Positions 566-50,840 of a stretch of 64,000 nt of DNA are shown in pieces. Origin of the DNA: a virus; the IMG/VR virus record IMGVR_UViG_3300025759_000073, positions 1 through 64,000 of that record; one strand, 5' to 3'. How positions within the stretch are numbered: position 1 is the stretch's first letter; each line of letters opens with the position of its first letter. The translations under genes and the position numbers were made by a program. Under the pieces are notes generated by a model that made no database searches, was not told the DNA's origin, and saw only the letters and a program-made list of their open reading frames with translations.

Positions 566-608
566 AGTCGCATTAATGATATCACCTCACTTTCGGTTCC
601 GCGACTAG

Positions 609-693
609 TGGGGCTGGAGGGACTCGAACCCTCACGCTCTTACGAGCGCCGGATTTTAAATCCGGAGTGTCTACCAAATTCCACCACAGCCCC
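609..693 (-). tRNA. tRNA-Leu (anticodon UAA)
   Basis: The 85-nt minus-strand sequence folds as a class II tRNA. The acceptor stem is GGGGCTG with CAGCCCC, the anticodon stem CCGGA/TCCGG encloses loop TTTAAAA (anticodon TAA), and there is a variable arm CGCTC-GTAA-GAGCG and a T-arm with GGTTCGAGTCC. The discriminator base is A, as expected for Leu. CCA is not encoded and must be added by the host enzyme. It lies 5 nt after tRNA-Met and shares its promoter. Confidence 0.95.
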
Positions 694-698
694 CGAAA

Positions 699-771
699 TG
701 TGCCCGATAGGACTCGAACCTATATCTTACCGCTTATGAGGCGGTGGCATTAACCATTATGCTACAGGCAC
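699..771 (-). tRNA. tRNA-Met-type (anticodon CAU)
   Basis: A 73-nt cloverleaf on the minus strand. The acceptor stem is GTGCCTG with CGGGCAC, the anticodon stem ACCGC/GCGGT encloses loop CTCATAA (anticodon CAT), and the T-arm contains GGTTCGAGTCC. The acceptor stem is fully paired at its end, so it is an elongator type rather than an initiator. A tRNA-Ile with lysidine-modified CAU cannot be excluded by eye. CCA is not encoded. It is the first tRNA behind the promoter at 789-817. Confidence 0.92.
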
Positions 772-778
772 GATCAAA

Positions 779-1000
779 TTACTCATCTAGTATACCATAA
801 CCTGCAACAACTGTCAAGTCAATTGAGTTTCCATCAAAAGAAACCTTCCGTCTGTATATTTTTGCTTTTAGATTTGCAGCTTTGATATCTTTCTTGAGAA
901 ACTTAATGAACTTTTCTCTTTCTTCGTCAGAGTCATGGATGTGATGTGGAACGACTGCCGCCTCGACAAGATTGTTAACGTCTGCTTTCGACCTCGGCAT
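779..1000 (-). CDS. hypothetical small protein
   Basis: A 73-residue protein starting MPRSKADVNN, with AAGGAG seven bases before ATG 1000. The middle is charged (DSDEEREKFIKFLKKD) and the end is beta-like (SIDLTVVAGYGILDE). I do not recognise a family. Its 5' end overlaps the 3' end of the DUF3310 gene by 26 nt, so the two are translationally linked. Its own 3' end contains a perfect sigma-70-type promoter for the tRNAs. Confidence 0.75.
   Translation of the reverse strand: MPRSKADVNNLVEAAVVPHHIHDSDEEREKFIKFLKKDIKAANLKAKIYRRKVSFDGNSIDLTVVAGYGILDE
789..817 (-). promoter_or_regulatory. sigma-70-type promoter for the tRNA pair
   Basis: Read on the minus strand: TTGACA (817-812), a 17-nt spacer, then TATACT (794-789). 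Transcription would start about 10 nt before tRNA-Met. The promoter lies inside the 3' end of the 73-codon gene, so the tRNAs can be made apart from the upstream operon. Sequence and spacing are close to the RpoD consensus; activity is inferred. Confidence 0.8.
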
Positions 1001-1205
1001 CTAAGTTCTCCTTTTGCTTAATAGCATAATCCAAATACCACCTTGCTTTCTTAAGATCTGTTAAAGGATCTTTCTTGTGGTTGTGTCTTGCTATATATTT
1101 TACAACATTTCCTAGGCAAAAGTCAAGCTCCCAATCTTGAATTGCGTCAATAACTTCAATTTTGCCTACATTATAATGCTTTGGATGATTAACTTTTTCT
1201 TTCAT
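975..1205 (-). CDS. DUF3310 family protein
   Basis: A 76-residue protein matching the DUF3310 (SaV-like) phage family. The N-terminal VNHPKHY-x-VGKIEVIDAI is followed by DFCLGNVVKYIARHNHKKDP and LTDLKKARWYLDYAI. The conserved NHPxHY, E-x-I-D and Y-x-x-R-x-x-x-K positions are all present, and the length is typical. The family is often listed as nucleotide-kinase-like, but no firm activity is established. The start overlaps the stop of the upstream gene (ATGA), so translation is coupled. Confidence 0.85.
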   Translation of the reverse strand: MKEKVNHPKHYNVGKIEVIDAIQDWELDFCLGNVVKYIARHNHKKDPLTDLKKARWYLDYAIKQKENLDAEVESRR

Positions 1206-1576
1206 TTAAATCTACTCCCATCTTCAAGCCACACTTCACAATTAAGAGGATTCCCATTTAGCCAGTCGCATTCATATTTTTTTTGCCCATTATCCCACCA
1301 TGCTTCTATTTTGACAACCTCGCCGTGTAGATAGCTTACTCTCTCCTGAAGCATCAATGTCCCTTCTTTTCTGGAATAGAAACTATGTTCTCCATGAAAT
1401 TTCCCACCCACAGTTTGGTATACTACCCTATGGGGATGGTAGTGGGTCATATAATAGTCATTGTCTTCTTCGACGATTTTGATATCATTCTCTTTTAAAA
1501 GTTCTACTTCGGAGAGTAAAGATATTGGAAATTCACCCCCTTCTTTAAGCCACTTGTTAATTTCTTCGGTTCTCAT
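1202..1576 (-). CDS. MORN/YwqK-like repeat protein, hypothetical
   Basis: A 124-residue protein starting MRTEEINKWLKEGGE. I chose this ATG over upstream in-frame codons because it overlaps the stop of the preceding gene (ATGA), as elsewhere in this genome, and the upstream codons lie inside that gene. The second half has imperfect repeats of the type GEVVKIEAWWDNGQKKYE and GNPLNCEVWLEDGSRF, resembling the beta-hairpin MORN/YwqK repeats of antitoxin-like proteins. No function can be assigned. Confidence 0.65.
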   Translation of the reverse strand: MRTEEINKWLKEGGEFPISLLSEVELLKENDIKIVEEDNDYYMTHYHPHRVVYQTVGGKFHGEHSFYSRKEGTLMLQERVSYLHGEVVKIEAWWDNGQKKYECDWLNGNPLNCEVWLEDGSRFK

Positions 1577-1824
1577 CTTTTCTTCATCTTTCTCATTTCT
1601 TTGTTGGATGGTCTGGTTTTCTTTTTCTTTTTTTGACCTTCGAAAAGACCAACTCCGTGAACTCTGCAATATTCTTCAAAGAAGAGATGATTGTTCATGT
1701 CCTTTTCCAAACAAAGATCAGACAATTCCATCCAAACGATTTGCTTGTCTTCCTTGTCTCCATCAATATATTGCTTACAAAGTGAACTTAATTCAGGGTG
1801 TTCTGTGATTTTTATCTTTGACAT
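1573..1824 (-). CDS. hypothetical small protein with basic tail
   Basis: An 83-residue protein starting MSKIKITEHPELSSL, with a strong AAAGGAG before ATG 1824. The N-terminal two thirds is acidic and mixed. The C-terminus is strongly basic (GQKKKKKTRPSNKEMRKMKKR), which could bind nucleic acid. I recognise no family. It is first in the small cluster after tRNA-Glu and is coupled to the next gene by ATGA. Confidence 0.65.
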   Translation of the reverse strand: MSKIKITEHPELSSLCKQYIDGDKEDKQIVWMELSDLCLEKDMNNHLFFEEYCRVHGVGLFEGQKKKKKTRPSNKEMRKMKKR

Positions 1825-1852
1825 TCTATTCTCCTTTGCTGGGAATTAATTG

Positions 1853-1924
1853 TGACTCCTACGGGATTTGAACCCGTGTTACTGATGTGAAAGACCAGCG
1901 TCCTAACCACTAGACGAAGGAGCC
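1853..1924 (-). tRNA. tRNA-Glu (anticodon UUC)
   Basis: A 72-nt cloverleaf on the minus strand. The acceptor stem is GGCTCCT with AGGAGTC, the anticodon stem CTGGT/ATCAG encloses loop CTTTCAC (anticodon TTC), and the T-arm is CGGGTTCAAATCCCG. The discriminator is A and CCA is not encoded. It sits alone between a hairpin terminator and the next small gene, apart from the other two tRNAs. Confidence 0.95.
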
Positions 1925-2195: not shown

Positions 2196-3278
2196 TTAAT
2201 CCTCCTGTGTTTGTAATGCGTCTTCGTTATCTTCGGCTGGTTTATAGATTACATGCTCATCCATAACGTCAAAGATAACTTGTCTAAACTCTGGGTCTTG
2301 AAGTTTCTCAACCCATTGCTTTCCTTGAAACTTAAACTCTCTTCCTTCTTTCGAGGTCAGAGTGTACCAAGCTCCTCCGGTTTTTAGCCTTTCAGAGCCT
2401 TTGATGGCATCAAGCCAACTTTCCTCGTCTTGAATTCCAACTTGTTGACCCCAAAGCAACTTAAAGTTGCAAGTCCTTCCGGCGGAACCAAAACGAGACT
2501 TTTCAAGTTTGACTTTCACTTCAGAACCAATCCTAACACCATTGGAATCCAAAATGTAAGCCGCCTTTGCTTTTCTGGCGGTAAGCCAGATTCTCAAAGA
2601 ATAAGTGTAATGAGCAGCTTTACCTCCCGGTGTGAAATAAGGAGTAGTCAAAGCTTCTGCAATATTACTGGTGATATTCGTTTTAAGCTGATTAACAATC
2701 AAGAAAGTTGATTGTGTGTTCGCCAAAGGAATTGTCACCTTCGAGAAGGCTTTGGAAAGAATCCTAGCTTTCATTGCCATAGAAGATTGAGGGTTGAAGT
2801 CACCTTCAACATCTTTCTCCGCAGGAGTGTGTGCTAGGGAATCCCAAATAAACAGCCATTTCTCTTCATCTGCCAAAAGAGTTTCGATCATTTCGAACAC
2901 TTTTTCAACAGACGCTGCTTGAACATAAAGCAAGTCATCAACATTGCAACCTGCTTTTGCCAAGAAAGTTGGGTCAATTGCCGACTCAGCGTCAAAATAA
3001 GCAACTCTAATGCCCATCTTTTGTGCGTTACCAGCAATTTGTGCAGCCATGAAGCTTTTCCCACTAGCTTCAAGTCCTGCAATCTCCGTGATTTTACCAA
3101 CAGGGATACCAGCCAATTGGCCTCTGCAAATAATAGAGTCCAACCAACGTGAGCCGGTTGCAATCCACTCTTTGACTTCTGTTGGATTTTCTTCATTAAG
3201 GTTGTGTGCAACCGTCATACCTACCTTTTTATTCAGCAGCTTGCGGTACACGTCCATGTCTACTTTACCAGCATTCAT
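2196..3278 (-). CDS. uvsX: UvsX/RecA-like recombinase
   Basis: A 360-residue RecA-superfamily ATPase that would coat single-stranded DNA and drive strand exchange in recombination-dependent replication. The Walker A motif is GLEASGKS (68-75), the aromatic/acidic segment AYFDAES follows near residue 95, the Walker B strand is LFIWDS (142-147), and the L2-region motif is NQLKTNI (196-202). Length is close to T4 UvsX (about 390). The C-terminus is acidic, as in RecA. GGAGG lies before ATG 3278, 3 nt after the gp32 stop, so both are likely made from one transcript. UvsX works with gp32, found next door. Confidence 0.95.
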   Translation of the reverse strand: MNAGKVDMDVYRKLLNKKVGMTVAHNLNEENPTEVKEWIATGSRWLDSIICRGQLAGIPVGKITEIAGLEASGKSFMAAQIAGNAQKMGIRVAYFDAESAIDPTFLAKAGCNVDDLLYVQAASVEKVFEMIETLLADEEKWLFIWDSLAHTPAEKDVEGDFNPQSSMAMKARILSKAFSKVTIPLANTQSTFLIVNQLKTNITSNIAEALTTPYFTPGGKAAHYTYSLRIWLTARKAKAAYILDSNGVRIGSEVKVKLEKSRFGSAGRTCNFKLLWGQQVGIQDEESWLDAIKGSERLKTGGAWYTLTSKEGREFKFQGKQWVEKLQDPEFRQVIFDVMDEHVIYKPAEDNEDALQTQED

Positions 3279-3281
3279 TTA

Positions 3282-4013
3282 TCAACCTCCGAGAAGTTCG
3301 TTAAAAGCCTTTCCAACTTTATCGTCAACATTGGAAGAGTATTTTTCTACATCTTCCTTGTCATCGCCAGCAAGGTATTTGTCAAGAAGTGCTTGAACAT
3401 CTTGCGTGGTTTTTCTTTCGAAAAGACCATCAAAGTCCGGAATGTTTTCCAGAAGTTTAGCACATTCCTCATCACCATCTTCGCATGCTTTCGAAGCTCG
3501 ACGCTTCGGAGTAAGAACGGTAGAGGGGAACATTGCTCCCGGTGCTTTACCATAGGCAAGAACCAAGTCGGTCCCAGTGTTAGTATCGGTAATATCACCG
3601 TAGTCGGGGTTCAAAACCAATTGCAGAAGTTGCTCATAAACAGTCTTGGAGTAACCCCAAATCTTCACACCTTCATCTTCTTTTCCTCGAACGAGGACAG
3701 GCGAGAAGAACCTTTGCTTTGGAAACAGCTTTTTAGCCATTTCAATAGACTCCGGAGTGCCTTCGCGATAAAGTTCGGAAGCAAAGTCCAAAACGGGACT
3801 TTCATCACCAAAGTTACGCTTCGGACAAAGAGTGGGTGCTTTGTCCAATCCGTAGTAGAACCAAAACTCTTTGAACGGATCGCCATCCGAAGTAGGAAGA
3901 ATACGGATCACTTGTTCTCCGTCTTCCGGCTTCCAGAAAAGATTGTCTTTACCGCCTCCTTTGTTTTTCAGACGGTTGTACTTTTCTTTCATCTTTTTCA
4001 TGTCAATAGCCAT
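3282..4013 (-). CDS. gp32: gp32-like single-stranded DNA-binding protein
   Basis: A 243-residue ssDNA-binding protein of the T4 gp32 type. I start it at the second of two close ATGs (MAIDMKKMKEKYNRL) because AAGGAG lies about 8 nt before it; the ATG six bases upstream is too close to the site. The order is a basic N-terminus, the conserved FWKPEDGEQVIRILP, an OB-fold core with WFYYGLD and RGKEDEGVKIWGYSKTVY, then an acidic tail (DGDEEC, DDKEDVEK). The zinc ligands of T4 gp32 are not clear: only one Cys is seen in the equivalent region. A consensus promoter lies 47-75 nt upstream. The partner uvsX follows. Confidence 0.9.
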   Translation of the reverse strand: MAIDMKKMKEKYNRLKNKGGGKDNLFWKPEDGEQVIRILPTSDGDPFKEFWFYYGLDKAPTLCPKRNFGDESPVLDFASELYREGTPESIEMAKKLFPKQRFFSPVLVRGKEDEGVKIWGYSKTVYEQLLQLVLNPDYGDITDTNTGTDLVLAYGKAPGAMFPSTVLTPKRRASKACEDGDEECAKLLENIPDFDGLFERKTTQDVQALLDKYLAGDDKEDVEKYSSNVDDKVGKAFNELLGG

Positions 4014-4059
4014 TGTCATTTCTCCTTTGTGTTGTTGACAGCCTTTGAGCTTGTGTAAT

Positions 4060-4088
4060 ATCATACCAAAACGAATTCAAAAAGTCAA
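4060..4088 (-). promoter_or_regulatory. sigma-70-type promoter for gp32-uvsX
   Basis: Read on the minus strand: TTGACT (4088-4083), a 17-nt spacer, then TATGAT (4065-4060). It lies in the 89-nt gap between the WYL_2-like gene and gp32, giving a leader of about 40 nt. This is the only sizeable gap in the replication cluster, which supports a real promoter. Confidence 0.8.
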
Positions 4089-4102: not shown

Positions 4103-4354
4103 TTATTTCAAATTCAAAGTTCCAGACATATGATAAGAAACCAATTCACCAATCAAAGTGTTATGATTGATCACTCTGTACCCTTTATTTTCCATATCCC
4201 AAACCAACTCCATTCCTTCCTGAAGCTTTGCTTTCTTTCCACCTTTTCCTTCCGGAAGAGCTTCTTTTGGAATCTCGTCCAACCTTACAAATTGCATATT
4301 TCGAATTGTTCCGTCTTTCTTTTTGAAAGTGCCATGGTATACATTAAACTTCAT
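4103..4354 (-). CDS. WYL_2-like small SH3-fold protein
   Basis: An 83-residue protein resembling the DUF2693/WYL_2 family (Sm-like SH3 beta-barrel). It shows KKKDGTIRNMQFVRLDEIP near the N-terminus and ELVWDMENKGYRVINHNTLIG near the C-terminus; the family pattern is KxDGTxRxM then VWDxxxxGWRxxxxDxI. The Trp is replaced by Tyr at GYR. Such proteins are common in T4-like phages and bind ligands or nucleic acid; no activity is proven. ATG 4354 lies inside the end of the tubulin-like gene (11-nt overlap), with AGGAG before it. Confidence 0.65.
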   Translation of the reverse strand: MKFNVYHGTFKKKDGTIRNMQFVRLDEIPKEALPEGKGGKKAKLQEGMELVWDMENKGYRVINHNTLIGELVSYHMSGTLNLK

Positions 4355-5171
4355 CTTTTTCTCCTAGTTTTGTGCCTTGATGAAAGTGTGTTCTTTTCAC
4401 TACCAAACCAAAATTATAACCAGATTCATTCGGATAAATCTTATAACAAAAATTCTTCTTTTCTTTAAAGTTTCCCTTGATCAGAGGGATCAGATTAACA
4501 TCTTCTTCCAAGCGCTTTTTATCGATGGACATATAATACCAGAACTCATTTTGATTGTCAAGCAAAAAATAATCATTTTCAGAATTATTTTCAAAATCAT
4601 ATGATCCAATCGACAAGATCCTATTTCTCTCCATTGAAGAAAACTTCGTTGCTGTAATCGGCTTTGCATTCTCAAAGTAATTCAGCATATGAATTGAGTA
4701 GCTGATTACGTCGTTGATTTTATCAAACTTATTCATAAATGTCAAGCCTGAAATTGAACTTTCTAATTTCTCGTTTGAAATTAAGACGATATCTTTGAAC
4801 ATACCAGACCTCGCATAGTCTTGCAAGGCATTGAAAATCAATTTATGCTGCAAAGAATACTGATCATAAAGTTGATCTTCTTCCGGAATGATCAGGATCA
4901 CTCTGATCTTTGTTTCTTTGAATTGCTCCAAGATCCTCAAAGAGGCCCCAGCAGTTGTGCCGGAAGTTGAAACAAAAAAAAGAGTTTCAGAATGTTTTGG
5001 GCAAACTTGAACATTGAAATGATCTTCATATTCCTTGTGTGATCCTCTTTCTTCGATCAGAAAGCCCCCTTCCCTTTTTTCTGTATCGAAAAGATAAAGA
5101 TCGTATTGAGGATATTGTCTAAACTTTTCTGCAATATTGCAACCACAATTGCCCAAACCAATCACATTCAT
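4344..5171 (-). CDS. tubulin/FtsZ-superfamily-like protein
   Basis: A 275-residue protein whose N-terminal half follows the FtsZ/tubulin GTPase pattern. The phosphate loop is GLGNCGCN (5-12). A degenerate tubulin signature STSGTTAGAS (68-77) sits where FtsZ has GGGTGTG. VLIIPEED, then IVLISNEKLE (128-137), correspond to FtsZ IPNDKL, and FDKINDVISYSIHML (149-163) to FtsZ helix H7 (FGAANDVL), keeping the guanine-binding Asn position. The catalytic T7 loop (NxDxxD) is not recognisable, and the protein is shorter than PhuZ. I start at the ATG overlapping the upstream stop (ATGA), with AAGGAAG before it. It may be a non-polymerising or partner-dependent member. Confidence 0.65.
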   Translation of the reverse strand: MNVIGLGNCGCNIAEKFRQYPQYDLYLFDTEKREGGFLIEERGSHKEYEDHFNVQVCPKHSETLFFVSTSGTTAGASLRILEQFKETKIRVILIIPEEDQLYDQYSLQHKLIFNALQDYARSGMFKDIVLISNEKLESSISGLTFMNKFDKINDVISYSIHMLNYFENAKPITATKFSSMERNRILSIGSYDFENNSENDYFLLDNQNEFWYYMSIDKKRLEEDVNLIPLIKGNFKEKKNFCYKIYPNESGYNFGLVVKRTHFHQGTKLGEKDEV

Positions 5172-5842
5172 TCTTTTTCTTCCTTGCAAAGTTTTTTATG
5201 CCATTCCAAAACAGCAGCTTTTGGATCTTCGGAATTGTAAATGCTCCTTCCTAGAATAGGATAATCCGTGAATAAGTTTTCTTCACAACCTTGTGCTCCA
5301 AATCCCGGAGAATAGATGATCTTATCTTCTCCCAAGATATTTGAAACTTTGTTGTAAAATTCGTGTTTACTAGGAGGAAGCACAAACCTTTTCACTCCAA
5401 ACTCTGCTGCTTGCTTGTAAATCTTCAAAGAATCTTCATCAGAAAAAAAGCCCCCTTCTTCTTTTGAAAACCCTTGATGAGTCATTTTGCCGCCAACAAT
5501 CGTTTTAATGTTTCTTTTTCTCAACTCTTTCAACCAAAAATCCAAAGAGTCAGGGCCGGCAAAAGGAAACAAGATCGCTTCATCAACGCCTGCCATCTTC
5601 ATCGCAGAAGCAAAGTTCATTCCCATTTGTGGGATGTCGTTTCCTGCTTTTTGATGATCGTAGATCACCTTTTTATTTGGTGCTCTAAACTTTACTTCAT
5701 TCACGCAGCGAATCAAACCAAATGTAAAAACAAGATGAAATCCAATCTTATAACCATAAACCTCTTCCATATCCCCTGTTTGCTTCATAATCTTGACCGC
5801 TTTTTGCATAGGGCAGTCTAGAGAGATAATAATCTTTTTCAT
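5168..5842 (-). CDS. pyrF: orotidine 5'-phosphate decarboxylase-like protein
   Basis: A 224-residue TIM-barrel protein of the OMP decarboxylase family, which makes UMP from OMP. The active-site set can be followed in order: SLD (D9), YGYKIG (K32), YDHQKAGNDIP (D62, K65, D69), PGFGAQG phosphate loop (179-185) and LGRSIY (R199). The DHQK version of the DxKxxD motif has one extra residue per gap, a variant I recall from some archaeal and bacterial members. Length is normal. It sits between the DNA polymerase and tubulin-like genes with 4-nt overlaps on both sides, so it belongs to the replication operon. Related TIM-barrel activities (hexulose-phosphate synthase type) cannot be excluded. Confidence 0.8.
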   Translation of the reverse strand: MKKIIISLDCPMQKAVKIMKQTGDMEEVYGYKIGFHLVFTFGLIRCVNEVKFRAPNKKVIYDHQKAGNDIPQMGMNFASAMKMAGVDEAILFPFAGPDSLDFWLKELRKRNIKTIVGGKMTHQGFSKEEGGFFSDEDSLKIYKQAAEFGVKRFVLPPSKHEFYNKVSNILGEDKIIYSPGFGAQGCEENLFTDYPILGRSIYNSEDPKAAVLEWHKKLCKEEKE

Positions 5843-6984
5843 ATATTCATTTCCTTCATTTGTCCGAAGTTTCTTCCTCCGGCAATATTTGTTTTGAATT
5901 TCCCAAACCTTGTTTCTTCAAACCTTCCAAGTATGCTTTTGATAATCTCCATATCTTCCAAGTCGAAATCAATAACCAAAGAATCGTGAATAGTAAAAGC
6001 CACATTAGATCTCCTCCCTTCCAGCATTTTGTCAACTTTCATTGCTTGCTCCAAGAAAAGATCAGAAGTTGTAGATTGAATAAGATAATTTAAAGCGTGA
6101 TGATCATCTGCTTCTATTTTCCTTCCAAATGGAGTTGTTATTATACCATCTTTATACCATCTTTGCAAGATCTTTTTTCTGTTGAAGATCTTTTCCAAAG
6201 CTTTGTTTTCTTTTTCAGGGTTGTAAAACCAAGCAAATGTTTTTTGTTTTGACTTTTCTCTAGTGTATTTGCCTTCGAACACTTCCTCAGCAATCCAAGA
6301 GTGAAGATCTCCTTCCGGCTGTTCTTGTTCGGCCAAAGCCAAGAACGTTCTTAGTTCAGCAGCGTTGAAATCCAACTCCACGAAACAAGCCCTATGAGGC
6401 TCAACAAGCCCCCTCAATTCCTTTTTGAGGGTCAGTATAGGGAAAGAGCCTTTACGTGTCGTTAAGCGCCCTGTAACGCTCTTGAAAGGGTTGTATTTGA
6501 CCTTTGTTGGAACGTCTTTGAACTTTTTTCTCAAATGAAAGGGAATATTCGAAAGATTGATTTTGATTTCTTGCCCTGAGATCTTTGAACAGAAAGAATA
6601 AATCTGGTTCAGAAAATCAGAATTCTCTTTTTCTTCATATGTTTCGAACACATGTTGACAAATCTGATTTTTTAGTGTAAAATATTGATTGATCAAATCA
6701 AAAGGAAAAACTGTATGAACATTCATTCTTGCTGGATCGCATCCAACGTGTTGGAAAGACTTCACAAAAGCCTTCATCTTTTTTTGACAGTTTTCCCATT
6801 CTTTGGAGATTGTGGCGGGGCAGACATCGGAAAGACCTTGTCCTTCGGTCAGAACAATTCCGTATTTTGTGCCGCTTGTTGGGAACTTAGGGTTGAACTC
6901 CCACGTTTTGGTTGCGGATTTGGGGATGTAGTCAATAACTTGACCTTGAAGAAATACCTTGTTTTGAAGTGTTTGAAAGTACAT
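5839..6984 (-). CDS. compact family A DNA polymerase (polymerase domain only)
   Basis: A 381-residue protein with the palm and fingers motifs of family A DNA polymerases: TGRL (171-174), motif A VELDFNAAELR (203-212, catalytic D205), a reduced motif B around KSKQKTFAWFYN (244-255), NYLIQSTTSDL (299-309) and motif C FTIHDSLVIDF (330-340, H333-D334). No 3'-5' or 5'-3' exonuclease motifs are present in the short N-terminus. I chose ATG 6984 because GGAGG sits five bases before it; an upstream in-frame start would lie deeper in the previous gene. The start overlaps the end of the preceding gene by 53 nt and is served by its own promoter (7028-7056). Confidence 0.88.
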   Translation of the reverse strand: MYFQTLQNKVFLQGQVIDYIPKSATKTWEFNPKFPTSGTKYGIVLTEGQGLSDVCPATISKEWENCQKKMKAFVKSFQHVGCDPARMNVHTVFPFDLINQYFTLKNQICQHVFETYEEKENSDFLNQIYSFCSKISGQEIKINLSNIPFHLRKKFKDVPTKVKYNPFKSVTGRLTTRKGSFPILTLKKELRGLVEPHRACFVELDFNAAELRTFLALAEQEQPEGDLHSWIAEEVFEGKYTREKSKQKTFAWFYNPEKENKALEKIFNRKKILQRWYKDGIITTPFGRKIEADDHHALNYLIQSTTSDLFLEQAMKVDKMLEGRRSNVAFTIHDSLVIDFDLEDMEIIKSILGRFEETRFGKFKTNIAGGRNFGQMKEMNI

Positions 6985-8242
6985 TTGTCCTCCGTGTCTG
7001 TTTGGAACAATTTTTGAGCGTGTTGTAAGTATACTCGATGACTGACCTTCTGTCAACATCTTTTTTCAAAATTCTTTCTATATTAAATTTTAATTTATTT
7101 ATATTCTTATTACTTTTAAAAATAAAACTTAAAAGATCTGAATAATAATAAATTAAATTATTGTTTTTTAAATAATTTTCAATATAATAATCTTTGTATT
7201 CATTTTCTGTTAAGATCTTTCTTTGAATAGAATAAGATCTATTAATTTTAGTATTTGATTTAGAACAAGATTTAACAATTTGTTCAGATTTAAAGATCAA
7301 AGAATTTTCTTTTAAAACTTTCAAATAAGCTTTAAAAAAAGAATAATACAAAAGTTCAAATTCTTTATAACTACCTTCGACAACTTCGAAGTTTTCTTTA
7401 AAGTAATCTTTCAAAGTTTTATTTTTCAATTGACTTTTTGTTGAAGGTAAGTTAAAATCCATAAAAAACCGCCAAGGAACATTTTTGTCATATCTCATAC
7501 CAGAAAGATAACAAAGACAAGCCAATCCACCATACTGCGGGATTCTATAAAAGTTATCAAACTTAAATTCATTGTTATCGTAAGGTGCATTAGCATCTTG
7601 GATTTCAAACCCAAGTCCTGAATTCAACATTGAATTTCGAAAAGAAAGAATGTAATTTGAATATAAGATTTCAGGACCTATTCTTTGCTCTTTGAAAAGT
7701 GAATAGATTGTTTTTATAAAAAGATCAAAGTTGGAAGCTTGATCTAAGGGTGTTCCTAAGATAAAATCTTCAAACTTATCCAAGATCAGATCAGAAGCAA
7801 AATCCAAGTATTCTTCTTCTACTTCTTCTGGAAGTTGTGCCCCCTTTTGAATAAGAAAAACTTCAGAGAATAAATCAATTTGGTTTTTGCCTATTGCAAA
7901 GTCATATTTTCTTATATCATAAAAGTTTTGATATATGTTATAAAGGTCTTTGTTAAGGTAAACCTCTTCATCATCTGTGAATTTTGGATCAACCAATTGA
8001 AAGGAAGATCTTTTTGGGATTATAGCTTGTCCTTTTTCGTTTACTTTTCCAAAGTAAAATCCTGTTTTAACAAAGTCAAAACCATCAGGAAGAAGGATTG
8101 GAGAACCTCCTTTGATAAACTTCAACCTTTCAACAAATGCTTCTTTTAAAGAAGATTGGTTGGACTGATTTGAAGGAATAACATCGTTTGTATAATTTTC
8201 GCTAAGATCTAAACTGATCTTATCAAGATCAAACTTTTCCAT
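6932..8242 (-). CDS. hypothetical protein, probable virion protein
   Basis: A 436-residue protein starting MEKFDLDKISLDLSENY, following the baseplate hub gene by 11 nt. It is rich in Phe, Tyr, Asn and Lys. A segment with CLCYLSGMRYDKNVPWRFFMDF lies mid-protein, and the last 110 residues are extremely Asn/Lys/Tyr-rich because the DNA there (about 7060-7350) is unusually AT-rich. I recognise no family. Position at the end of the tail operon suggests a baseplate or tail component. The 3' end contains the polymerase promoter and overlaps the polymerase start. Confidence 0.6.
   Translation of the reverse strand: MEKFDLDKISLDLSENYTNDVIPSNQSNQSSLKEAFVERLKFIKGGSPILLPDGFDFVKTGFYFGKVNEKGQAIIPKRSSFQLVDPKFTDDEEVYLNKDLYNIYQNFYDIRKYDFAIGKNQIDLFSEVFLIQKGAQLPEEVEEEYLDFASDLILDKFEDFILGTPLDQASNFDLFIKTIYSLFKEQRIGPEILYSNYILSFRNSMLNSGLGFEIQDANAPYDNNEFKFDNFYRIPQYGGLACLCYLSGMRYDKNVPWRFFMDFNLPSTKSQLKNKTLKDYFKENFEVVEGSYKEFELLYYSFFKAYLKVLKENSLIFKSEQIVKSCSKSNTKINRSYSIQRKILTENEYKDYYIENYLKNNNLIYYYSDLLSFIFKSNKNINKLKFNIERILKKDVDRRSVIEYTYNTLKNCSKQTRRTNVLSNTSKQGISSRSSY
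7028..7056 (-). promoter_or_regulatory. sigma-70-type promoter for the polymerase operon
   Basis: Read on the minus strand: TTGACA (7056-7051), a 17-nt spacer, then TATACT (7033-7028). It is embedded in the 3' end of the preceding structural gene, 44-72 nt before the polymerase start. It marks the switch from late structural genes to replication genes. Near-perfect consensus; activity inferred. Confidence 0.8.
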
Positions 8243-47302: not shown

Positions 47303-50300
47303 TTATTGATTTACTCTCGCAAATCCATCAACTCTATCAATATCAATTGTTGAATCAACAATGTCCTTGAGAGAATCCATATGACTTATGATCAAAACCG
47401 TTTTAAAGTAGTTTTTAATCATTTGAAGTATTCTAGTGAAGCCTTCCAAGTTATTTTCATCCAAAGCTGTTCCCGGCTCATCTAAGATGAAAATATCGCT
47501 TTTTGGAAGAGAAGAGACATTCAACAGGGCCAGTCTTATAGCCATAGCAGCAATGGACTTTTCGGCTCCAGAACCTAATTCTAGAGGTCTAGGATCGTGC
47601 CCTTGATGTTGGATAAGAATGTTCAATTTCTTTTCTTCTGTTTCAAAGAAAACTTCAAAATCAACAACCCCTGTCAAGATCTTTTGAACCTCTTCGTTGA
47701 TCTTTGGGAGTCTTTTTTTGATAATCTCGTATGAGATGCCAGAGTTGTGATAGCAAGTCATGAACAAATGATATGCTGCAAACTTCTTTTTATTTTCTTC
47801 ATACTCTTCGGCTTCTTTTTTGACAGTTTCCAGTTTTTGCTCAATCTGACCCTTAACGGTGTGAAGATGAATATACTCTGCTTCGCAGGTGTTATATTCG
47901 TTTTCTTTTTGTTTGAGGTCTTTTTTAAGCTGCTTCTCTTCTTTTATCAAAGCTTCGAGATTTTCAATCGCTTCCTTGTTATCTTCGTATTCTTTAATAT
48001 CAGACCTCAATTCAGAAATAATGCTTTCAGTAGATGAAATCTTGGTTTCACCTTGAAGCACTTTGTTCTTCAATTTAAGCAGTTCAGAGCTAACTTTGTC
48101 CTTTTTCTCAACTAACTTCTCATAGTTTTGAACATACTCTTCTGCTTTCTTATATTCGTCACCATCAATGTAATCCTGTGCTTCTTCTTTTTCTTTTTGA
48201 AGTCCTTTCAAGGCCAACTCCAACTCTGAAACTGTTGTTTTTGCAACAAAAGCATCTTTGATAAATTTGCAAGTTTTAAACTGATCTCCACAGGGAACCT
48301 GATCGAGAAGAGAGATCTTTTTCTCTTCCATTTTCTTCTTGATTTCCTCTTGTTTTACCTCATTTAAGATCAATTTAACTTGCTTTGCTTTCTCTTTACC
48401 AACCTCGTAAGATTGGTAGTATTCTTCCGGATCAAAAGTGGAAAGGAACTCTTTGATTTTGTTCAAATAAGCACTTTTTTCTTCTTTTTGCCCTTCCAAA
48501 TTAGCTTGGCTTGCTCTCAAGGTTTCCAAGATTTGATTAGAGTTTTTCAACTCTTTTCTGCACTTCTCAACATTGATGATTTTTGCTGGAACTGACTTGA
48601 TTTTGTGCTCTAAAAGAGAAAGCTCTTTTTCCATTCCTTTCTTCTCATTTTTCAGTATATCGCAGCATTCCTTTTTCTCATCTAGATCTAATTGGTTGTA
48701 GATTAGTGCGCTTTGTTGTTCAAAAATCTCATCTTTGAAGTTTCTTTCTTCTTCTTTTTTGATCAAAGCTTTAAGGTCTCTGGAATCTTCCTTTGCCGCT
48801 TTGAATTTTTCTTCAAAAAACACCAAATCTAGGAATTTTGCCAAGATTTCCTTGCGTTTGGTAGAGCCTTCATTTACAAACTGCAATGCTCCGTGTTGTG
48901 CTGACATTGATGTAATCAGAAAATCTTCAATTGAGCCAATATATTTGCGAATATTCCTATCTGTCTCCGCCCTTGTATTTCCATTCAATTCTACAACTTT
49001 TTTCGCAGCAGGGTCAAAACAAGAAAAATCAACATTCACTTTTGCTTCATCTGTTGTCTTTCCTTTGAGCTTTTTTACATACTTTTCAATGCTTCTGGAA
49101 ATAGTGTACTCTTCCCCTCCAATGTCAAATTTAAGTTCAATGTTTGCATCTGTCTTATTTTGGTTGATAAAGGAAATATTCTTCTTTGCCGGCTTTGAAG
49201 TGGTGTTAAACGCACCCAAGAGGAAAGAGTCAATAATACTGGACTTTCCAGAGTAGTTCTTCCCAAAGATTCCAATGATTCCTTTCATTTTTTCAAAGTC
49301 TAGAGAGTTATCACCCCCATAGTTGAAAAGGTTTTCCCATTCCATAGACTTCATCTTCCAGTTCAAATTGCGAAGTTGATCATCACTACCTTCAACTAAT
49401 GAATTATATTTTGCATTAAGCTCTACGACCTTGTCCATAATATCATCTTCAACTTCAAACTCTTCAAGGTACTCTTTCATAAGCTTTTTCTGGACTTCTA
49501 CATCGCGAAGGTTTTCAATCTCGCCGTCCTTTAGATCAACATTTTTTTTAGCCAACTCTGCTTTGCTCAAGTGGGTGACAGACTCTGCTTTAAAGTTGAT
49601 TTTAGCGTCTTCAATAGCTTTTTTAAGAACGTCAAGTGTGATGTTGCTTTCAGACACCAATCGAATCCTAGCTCCGGCCTTTGGATTGGCTGATTTTGGA
49701 ATCTTTCCTTTCTTAGTCAACTTGATCGTAACAAAAGGCTTTGGATTCTCCAGAAGAATGTGTCGAACAGAAAACTTGTCTTTGTCTTCGATCTCCCAAA
49801 CCAAAAAACCTTTGTCGTCTGTTTCGCCAAAGTTTTGTTGCACGGTTGACCCGGCATACCTGATCTTTCCTTTGCGATCGATCTTCTGATTTGTCTTGTG
49901 GATGTCTCCCAGAAAGCCATAATCGAACTTTTTAAGGTCTTCAATCTCAACATCGCCGTGTTCGATCACATATCCAACATCTGTTACCGACCCTTTGACC
50001 GCTCCATGGTAAAGAGCAATGTTGATCCGATCAGGATCTTGTGTTAGATCCCAATTGTCTTCGTCAAAGATGCTCAACACATTCAGCGTAAAGGGCTCTG
50101 TAAGCCTTATTTTAGCCGCCTTCTTGATCAAATGGAGGTTAGCTATACCTAGGGCATCTACAATGGGAGAAATGGCATCCTGACGGCTTTTATTGCGCAG
50201 GTTTCCATCGTGGTTCCCCAAGATGATATAAGTTGGCGCAATTGCTGCCAAGTTCTTGAAGAAATCGGAGCAGATTTCAACAAATTCTGGTGAGATTTGG

Positions 50301-50452
50301 GTTTTGGTGTGAGCAATATCACCACAATGAATAATATAATCTGGCCTTTCTCTTTTCAACTCTTTATAAAGTTGCTTGAAAACTAGATCATACTCGTAGT
50401 GATATTTAAGGTTTTTAATGTGGGTGTCTGCAATATGGGCAAACTTAGTCAT
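47303..50452 (-). CDS. gp47-gp46: single-chain Mre11-Rad50-type nuclease/ATPase (gp47-gp46 fusion)
   Basis: A 1049-residue fusion. Residues 1-330 are a metallophosphatase: HIADTH (D9, H11), CGDIAH near 45, GNHD (79-82) and a later GSTVQQNFGE. Residues 340-1049 are an SMC-type ATPase: Walker A GKNYSGKSS (about 395-403), two coiled-coil arms, a hook-like PCGDQFKTC (about 720), signature ELGSGAEKSIAAMAIRLAL (about 960) and Walker B IFILDEPGTALD (about 985-995). T4 makes these as gp47 and gp46. The complex resects DNA ends for UvsX. I start at ATG 50452, since GGAGG lies five bases before it. Confidence 0.93.
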   Translation of the reverse strand: MTKFAHIADTHIKNLKYHYEYDLVFKQLYKELKRERPDYIIHCGDIAHTKTQISPEFVEICSDFFKNLAAIAPTYIILGNHDGNLRNKSRQDAISPIVDALGIANLHLIKKAAKIRLTEPFTLNVLSIFDEDNWDLTQDPDRINIALYHGAVKGSVTDVGYVIEHGDVEIEDLKKFDYGFLGDIHKTNQKIDRKGKIRYAGSTVQQNFGETDDKGFLVWEIEDKDKFSVRHILLENPKPFVTIKLTKKGKIPKSANPKAGARIRLVSESNITLDVLKKAIEDAKINFKAESVTHLSKAELAKKNVDLKDGEIENLRDVEVQKKLMKEYLEEFEVEDDIMDKVVELNAKYNSLVEGSDDQLRNLNWKMKSMEWENLFNYGGDNSLDFEKMKGIIGIFGKNYSGKSSIIDSFLLGAFNTTSKPAKKNISFINQNKTDANIELKFDIGGEEYTISRSIEKYVKKLKGKTTDEAKVNVDFSCFDPAAKKVVELNGNTRAETDRNIRKYIGSIEDFLITSMSAQHGALQFVNEGSTKRKEILAKFLDLVFFEEKFKAAKEDSRDLKALIKKEEERNFKDEIFEQQSALIYNQLDLDEKKECCDILKNEKKGMEKELSLLEHKIKSVPAKIINVEKCRKELKNSNQILETLRASQANLEGQKEEKSAYLNKIKEFLSTFDPEEYYQSYEVGKEKAKQVKLILNEVKQEEIKKKMEEKKISLLDQVPCGDQFKTCKFIKDAFVAKTTVSELELALKGLQKEKEEAQDYIDGDEYKKAEEYVQNYEKLVEKKDKVSSELLKLKNKVLQGETKISSTESIISELRSDIKEYEDNKEAIENLEALIKEEKQLKKDLKQKENEYNTCEAEYIHLHTVKGQIEQKLETVKKEAEEYEENKKKFAAYHLFMTCYHNSGISYEIIKKRLPKINEEVQKILTGVVDFEVFFETEEKKLNILIQHQGHDPRPLELGSGAEKSIAAMAIRLALLNVSSLPKSDIFILDEPGTALDENNLEGFTRILQMIKNYFKTVLIISHMDSLKDIVDSTIDIDRVDGFARVNQ

Positions 50453-50840
50453 TGAAGCCTCCATTTTTAACTTTTTCTATTGTTTCGCTGATTTCACTTC
50501 TGACAACATTAAATATTGCCGGTGACAGGTTGTACAACTCTTTAAATGCTTCGTCTCGCCAAAGATCAACATCTTTCTCCCTTTTATCAAATTCTTTTTC
50601 CAAAGCATAATCTGTATAATCTGGATTTACTCTTTTGAAGCTTTCTTTTTGCTCTTGTATCTCCCTTCTAGTATCGACATAAACTTGCAAAAGAAAAGAA
50701 AGAGATAAATACATTGCAGATTTCATAATTTTATACGCTTGTGCCACACCCACGACAAATTGTAGGCTCATGTAGGCCAGAATACCACCTAAAAACCAGA
50801 CCAACTCATAAACACCTTGTTGTTTCAAAAATTCAATCAT
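50445..50840 (-). CDS. membrane-anchored helical protein, hypothetical
   Basis: A 131-residue protein with one or two hydrophobic segments at the start (YELVWFLGGILAYMSLQFVV and MYLSLSFLLQVYV) and then charged helices (EKEFDKREKDVDLWRDEAFK). TAGGAG lies before ATG 50840. It sits between primase and the gp47-gp46 fusion, so it might tether replication or repair proteins at the membrane, but there is no direct evidence. No family recognised. Confidence 0.6.
   Translation of the reverse strand: MIEFLKQQGVYELVWFLGGILAYMSLQFVVGVAQAYKIMKSAMYLSLSFLLQVYVDTRREIQEQKESFKRVNPDYTDYALEKEFDKREKDVDLWRDEAFKELYNLSPAIFNVVRSEISETIEKVKNGGFND

Follow-up and report, generated by a model that had tools for sequence, protein, structure and literature searches.

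We found that a gene present in every genome tested of a large group of uncultured aquatic T4-like viruses of bacteria encodes a predicted, cut-down relative of tubulin. The protein seems to keep its guanine-binding pocket but has lost the parts needed to split GTP and build filaments in the canonical way, and its gene sits among the virus's DNA-replication genes, which suggests that a cytoskeletal fold has been reused for replication. While the fold is near certain, the function is inferred, and we place the probability of a role as a replication adaptor at about 0.4.

A predicted tubulin fold in a replication gene cluster

We analyzed a 64,000-nucleotide stretch of viral DNA (IMG/VR record IMGVR_UViG_3300025759_000073, positions 1 to 64,000; hereafter the window). 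The initial annotation had proposed that positions 4344-5171 encode a divergent tubulin/FtsZ-like protein of 275 residues, which may be reduced and possibly non-polymerising, between OMP decarboxylase-like and WYL_2-like genes. The open reading frame exists, but it lies on the minus strand (ATG at 5171-5169, stop at 4346-4344, 275 aa); the plus strand of the same interval is full of stops. All four of the motifs on which the proposal rested are present, namely GLGNCGCN (residues 5-12), STSGTTAGAS (68-77), ISNEKLE (131-137), and FDKINDVI (149-156). The gene and its neighbors are arranged as follows:

2196..3278 (-), UvsX/RecA recombinase
3282..4064 (-), gp32-like single-strand DNA-binding protein (SSB)
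4103..4354 (-), WYL_2 Sm-like small protein (PF10902, 2e-7), overlapping the 3' end of the tubulin gene by 11 nt
4344..5171 (-), tubulin-fold protein gene, 275 aa
5179..5185 (-), AAGGAAG, a ribosome-binding-site-like stretch before the ATG
5168..5842 (-), OMP decarboxylase/HUMPS-family gene (PF00215, 6e-12), overlapping the ATG by 4 nt (ATGA) and found only in the closest relatives
5839..7059 (-), family A DNA polymerase (PolA) without exonuclease domains, the general upstream neighbor of the family
6932..8242 (-), 436-aa protein with no Pfam match that precedes polA in most members of the clade (31 loci)

The polymerase is about 380-406 aa long in the clade and carries HDS in place of the usual HDE of motif C. 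Elsewhere in the window, three tRNA genes (Leu-taa, Met-cat, Glu-ttc) lie downstream of uvsX (608-1924, minus strand), and a 1053-aa open reading frame (47303-50464, minus strand) joins a metallophosphatase domain to an SMC-like ATPase domain, as if T4 gp47 and gp46 were fused into one protein.

To determine the fold of the protein, we built an AlphaFold2 model without templates from a 40-member alignment (pLDDT 92.4, pTM 0.90) and compared it with the PDB using Foldseek. FtsZ, TubZ, and CetZ occupied all of the 50 best places, with matches spanning both domains (best E 5.8e-13, probability 1.00, TM about 0.6-0.7 over about 310 alignment columns, 12-15% identity). A second model, for one of the most divergent members of the family, gave a pLDDT of 92.0, the same elements, and a top-50 list consisting of tubulin-superfamily structures only; the TubZ structures 4ei7 and 2xka were among the matches in the two searches. 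In the viral structure library BFVD, the best matches are annotated as FtsZ or cell division proteins where they carry a name, but only at 11-13% identity, so that library holds no close relative. Weak TrkA_N and dehydrogenase sequence hits raised the possibility of an unrelated Rossmann or oxidoreductase fold, but this was rejected by the structure search, and a match to the DnaB N-terminal domain (PF00772, E 0.047) was rejected as chance. Thus, the predicted fold has the tubulin nucleotide-binding domain and also the C-terminal domain.

In contrast with the structure searches, standard sequence models do not name the family in Pfam, PHROGs, or NCBIfam. Ten of 40 members matched Pfam PF00091 weakly (best E 0.003) and 3 of 40 matched the FtsZ equivalog TIGR00065 (best E 0.02), in both cases below the cut-offs, and a PDB sequence search found no relative. 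Single-sequence profile comparisons with one PhuZ, one FtsZ, or beta-tubulin were likewise not significant. We compared family profiles. The family aligned with seven FtsZs collinearly over 238 columns (residues 3-255; E 0.0026), scoring 30.95 against a maximum of 25.4 in 150 column shuffles. It aligned with ten PhuZs over the N-terminal third only (residues 3-93; E 1.8e-5, probability 78%), scoring 44.6 against a maximum of 35.7 in 100 shuffles. PhuZ against FtsZ scores 63.4 on the same scale, so the family is a distant relative that is nearer to PhuZ than to FtsZ among those tested. Although H7 gave the impression of resembling eukaryotic tubulin (YGDLNHLVSATM), this was not upheld, as beta-tubulin scored no better than shuffles.

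Pocket residues and missing catalytic parts

We next asked which parts of the tubulin fold are kept in 93 dereplicated members of the family. The features of the window's gene, with conservation across these members, are:

5136..5159 (-), T1 loop, residues 5-12 GLGNCGCN; G5, G7, G10, and C11 conserved in at least 89/93
5103..5114 (-), family-specific YPQY motif, residues 20-23 between H1 and S2; Y23 invariant
5079..5087 (-), end of S2 and T2, residues 29-31 DTE; D29 in 84/93, resembling the IDTS of PhuZ rather than the NTD of FtsZ
5025..5030 (-), Y48-E49, at least 90/93, on the one short helix left where FtsZ has H2-S3-T3-H3
4941..4970 (-), degenerate T4 loop, residues 68-77 STSGTTAGAS (family GGSGxISGAS; G71 in 87/93)
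4806..4823 (-), QxYARS at the end of H5, residues 117-122; Q117, R121, and S122 invariant; not an FtsZ motif
4773..4775 (-), N133 of T6, aligned with FtsZ N165; 90/93
4668..4730 (-), helix H7, residues 148-168, with aromatic F149 (aligned with FtsZ F182), N153 (FtsZ N186; 91/93), and invariant H161
4620..4673 (-), region where T7 and H8 would be, residues 167-184; no conserved catalytic acid and no helix in either model
4377..4619 (-), C-terminal domain, residues 185-265

The T1 glycines, C11, N133, and N153 are among the most conserved residues in the family, and position 149 is aromatic or His in most members. Since the equivalent T6 and H7 residues of FtsZ contact guanine, we infer that the protein binds a guanine nucleotide through the T1 glycines, Asn133, and Asn153 with the aromatic at 149, although this rests on conservation rather than on direct evidence of binding. 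However, the T4 loop lacks the GGGTG(S/T)G signature, with only G71 strongly conserved, and N12 of T1 is not conserved, so the phosphate site may be weak or empty. Together with the missing T3 loop, these observations could mean that the protein has lost nucleotide binding altogether and is a structural scaffold that merely keeps the fold. We consider this unlikely, because N133 and N153 rank 17 and 12 of 275 positions in conservation, which is hard to explain without a base to bind.

The proposal that the protein is reduced was confirmed. The stretch from S2 to T4 is about 17-20 residues shorter than in FtsZ, with no S3-T3-H3, and between H7 and the next core strand there is no conserved catalytic acid and no H8. 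Relative to FtsZ, the family also lacks GGGTGTG, the T3 GAGANP, the T7 NxDxxD, and the C-terminal FtsA/ZipA-binding tail. With PhuZ, the phage tubulin of phiKZ-like, nucleus-forming Chimalliviridae, it shares a similar T1 (GGAG.. / GQAG..), S2 end (YIDT), and T4-H4 (GGASGSTIGPSL / GGS-GxISGASL), but it lacks the full T3 segment, catalytic T7 Asp, H8, H11, and acidic tail of PhuZ (PMC3678025). Compared with TubZ, the protein is shorter and has no T7; no centromere-like repeats or iteron array were found near the gene, and its small neighbor is WYL_2, which is not annotated as TubR.

T3, T7, and the base of H8 make up the canonical protofilament contact (PMC3678025), so canonical GTP hydrolysis and protofilaments are not expected, consistent with the suggestion that the protein may be non-polymerising. 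Nevertheless, T7-loop mutants of PhuZ lose GTPase activity yet form static filaments (PMC7950403), so loss of hydrolysis does not by itself exclude filaments, and subunits lacking H8 and T3 could still polymerise by another interface. The family's own invariant residues could form such an interface, and the best profile match is PhuZ. It therefore remains possible that the protein assembles by a non-canonical interface, or as very stable filaments, and organizes or positions phage DNA or capsids as PhuZ does. We regard this as unlikely, since the H11/tail that stabilizes PhuZ filaments is missing along with the canonical interface. Moreover, PhuZ is dispensable and missing from 24% of nucleus-forming phages (PMC11724907), whereas this gene was never missing from the loci examined below.

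Distribution among Far-T4 phages

The family has at least 587 hits in IMG/VR. None was found in isolate-phage records with two queries or in 84,980 prokaryote genomes by pattern scan, although these searches find fairly close relatives only. Divergent FtsZ-like genes were seen on marine plasmids, one next to a PcfJ-domain gene (Marinomonas) and one between a WYL-domain gene and an integrase (Pseudoalteromonas), at L072:311-1273 and L071:134-1228 (locus labels used here). A TAG inside one member of the family looked like recoding, but the frames around it do not support that.

To test presence without circularity, we gathered loci with polA and SSB queries rather than with the gene itself. All 115 loci holding polA followed by SSB have the gene between them, and all 100 polA genes with more than 3 kb downstream have it within 3 kb. 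Because the loci returned are the nearest relatives of the queries, this describes the clade and not all Far-T4 phages. Nine contigs of 147-204 kb each hold exactly one copy and no PF00091 match at E 1. The general position of the gene is between polA and the gp32-like SSB/UvsX; the adjacency to pyrF noted in the initial annotation is a peculiarity of the closest relatives.

The gp23, terminase, tail sheath, UvsX, and gp32 genes make this phage a T4-like myovirus. For gp23 the best records are LR756508, Mel-JY01, RM378, and immuto, and for terminase Mel-JY01, immuto, and LR756508, and these best matches place it in the Far-T4 group (PMC4360716). Notably, these four records (three of them isolates) lack the gene by a profile search that detects it in 9/9 clade contigs, although three have the polA and SSB genes in the same order. 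In immuto and LR756508, a different small conserved protein lies in the polA-SSB interval (L317:1346-1801 and L318:4285-4674). The gene thus looks like an addition, or a retained ancestral gene, specific to an uncultured Far-T4 subclade, in the absence of a rooted tree.

A possible role in phage DNA replication

The gene is under strong purifying selection (dN/dS 0.04-0.15), and many copies begin within the polA stop codon (gap -4 or -1). In 26 loci, pairwise divergence of the family tracks polA (r 0.86) more closely than polA tracks SSB (r 0.69). We therefore favor, at a probability of about 0.4, a GTPase-deficient, guanine-nucleotide-binding adaptor or scaffold of the phage replication machinery. 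It would most likely work with the exonuclease-less PolA encoded next to it, through the family's own invariant surface residues (YPQY, YE, QxYARS, H161). This reading is inferred without direct evidence of any partner; conserved order can reflect co-regulation alone, and co-divergence partly reflects shared genome history. Related Far-T4 phages replicate with a similar polA-SSB-UvsX module and no tubulin, so the protein is not needed by that module in general. No T4-type or bacterial-type clamp was found in seven contigs of the clade, but the relatives lacking the tubulin show no clamp either, so the missing clamp is not specific evidence for a processivity role.

We also considered whether the protein could be a dominant-negative mimic that binds host FtsZ, caps its filaments, and blocks host division. 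A complete FtsZ-like fold with an altered subunit interface would be expected of a capping subunit, and phages appear to inhibit FtsZ with other small proteins. However, this seems improbable given that the sequence is closer to PhuZ than to FtsZ, that the gene sits in the replication module and evolves slowly, and that no FtsZ-like T3 or T7 surface is kept; host-targeting proteins are usually variable and dispensable. Alternatively, retention of a guanine pocket without catalysis, and the OMP decarboxylase-family gene before it in the closest relatives, could point to a nucleotide sensor or a regulator of nucleotide metabolism or translation rather than of DNA synthesis. This too is doubtful, since that gene is absent next to most members and the stable neighbors are replication proteins.

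Phage tubulins are known from nucleus-forming jumbo phages and a few partition systems, where they are filaments and, for PhuZ, dispensable. The family reported here was not described in the papers searched, which were open-access and did not include preprints, and is a third lineage, with hundreds of members that standard family models miss, that was never missing from the loci examined and has no catalytic parts. It may separate the tubulin fold from filament formation and give a natural test of which parts of the fold are needed for nucleotide binding alone. It also provides an invariant marker gene and a replication-factor candidate for Far-T4 phages, which are reported as widespread in water and linked to Flavobacteriales (PMC13037479, PMC7198788). 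If the tentative reading of a guanine-nucleotide-loaded, probably non-filamentous replisome subunit is correct, it would be the first tubulin-fold protein known to act directly in DNA replication.
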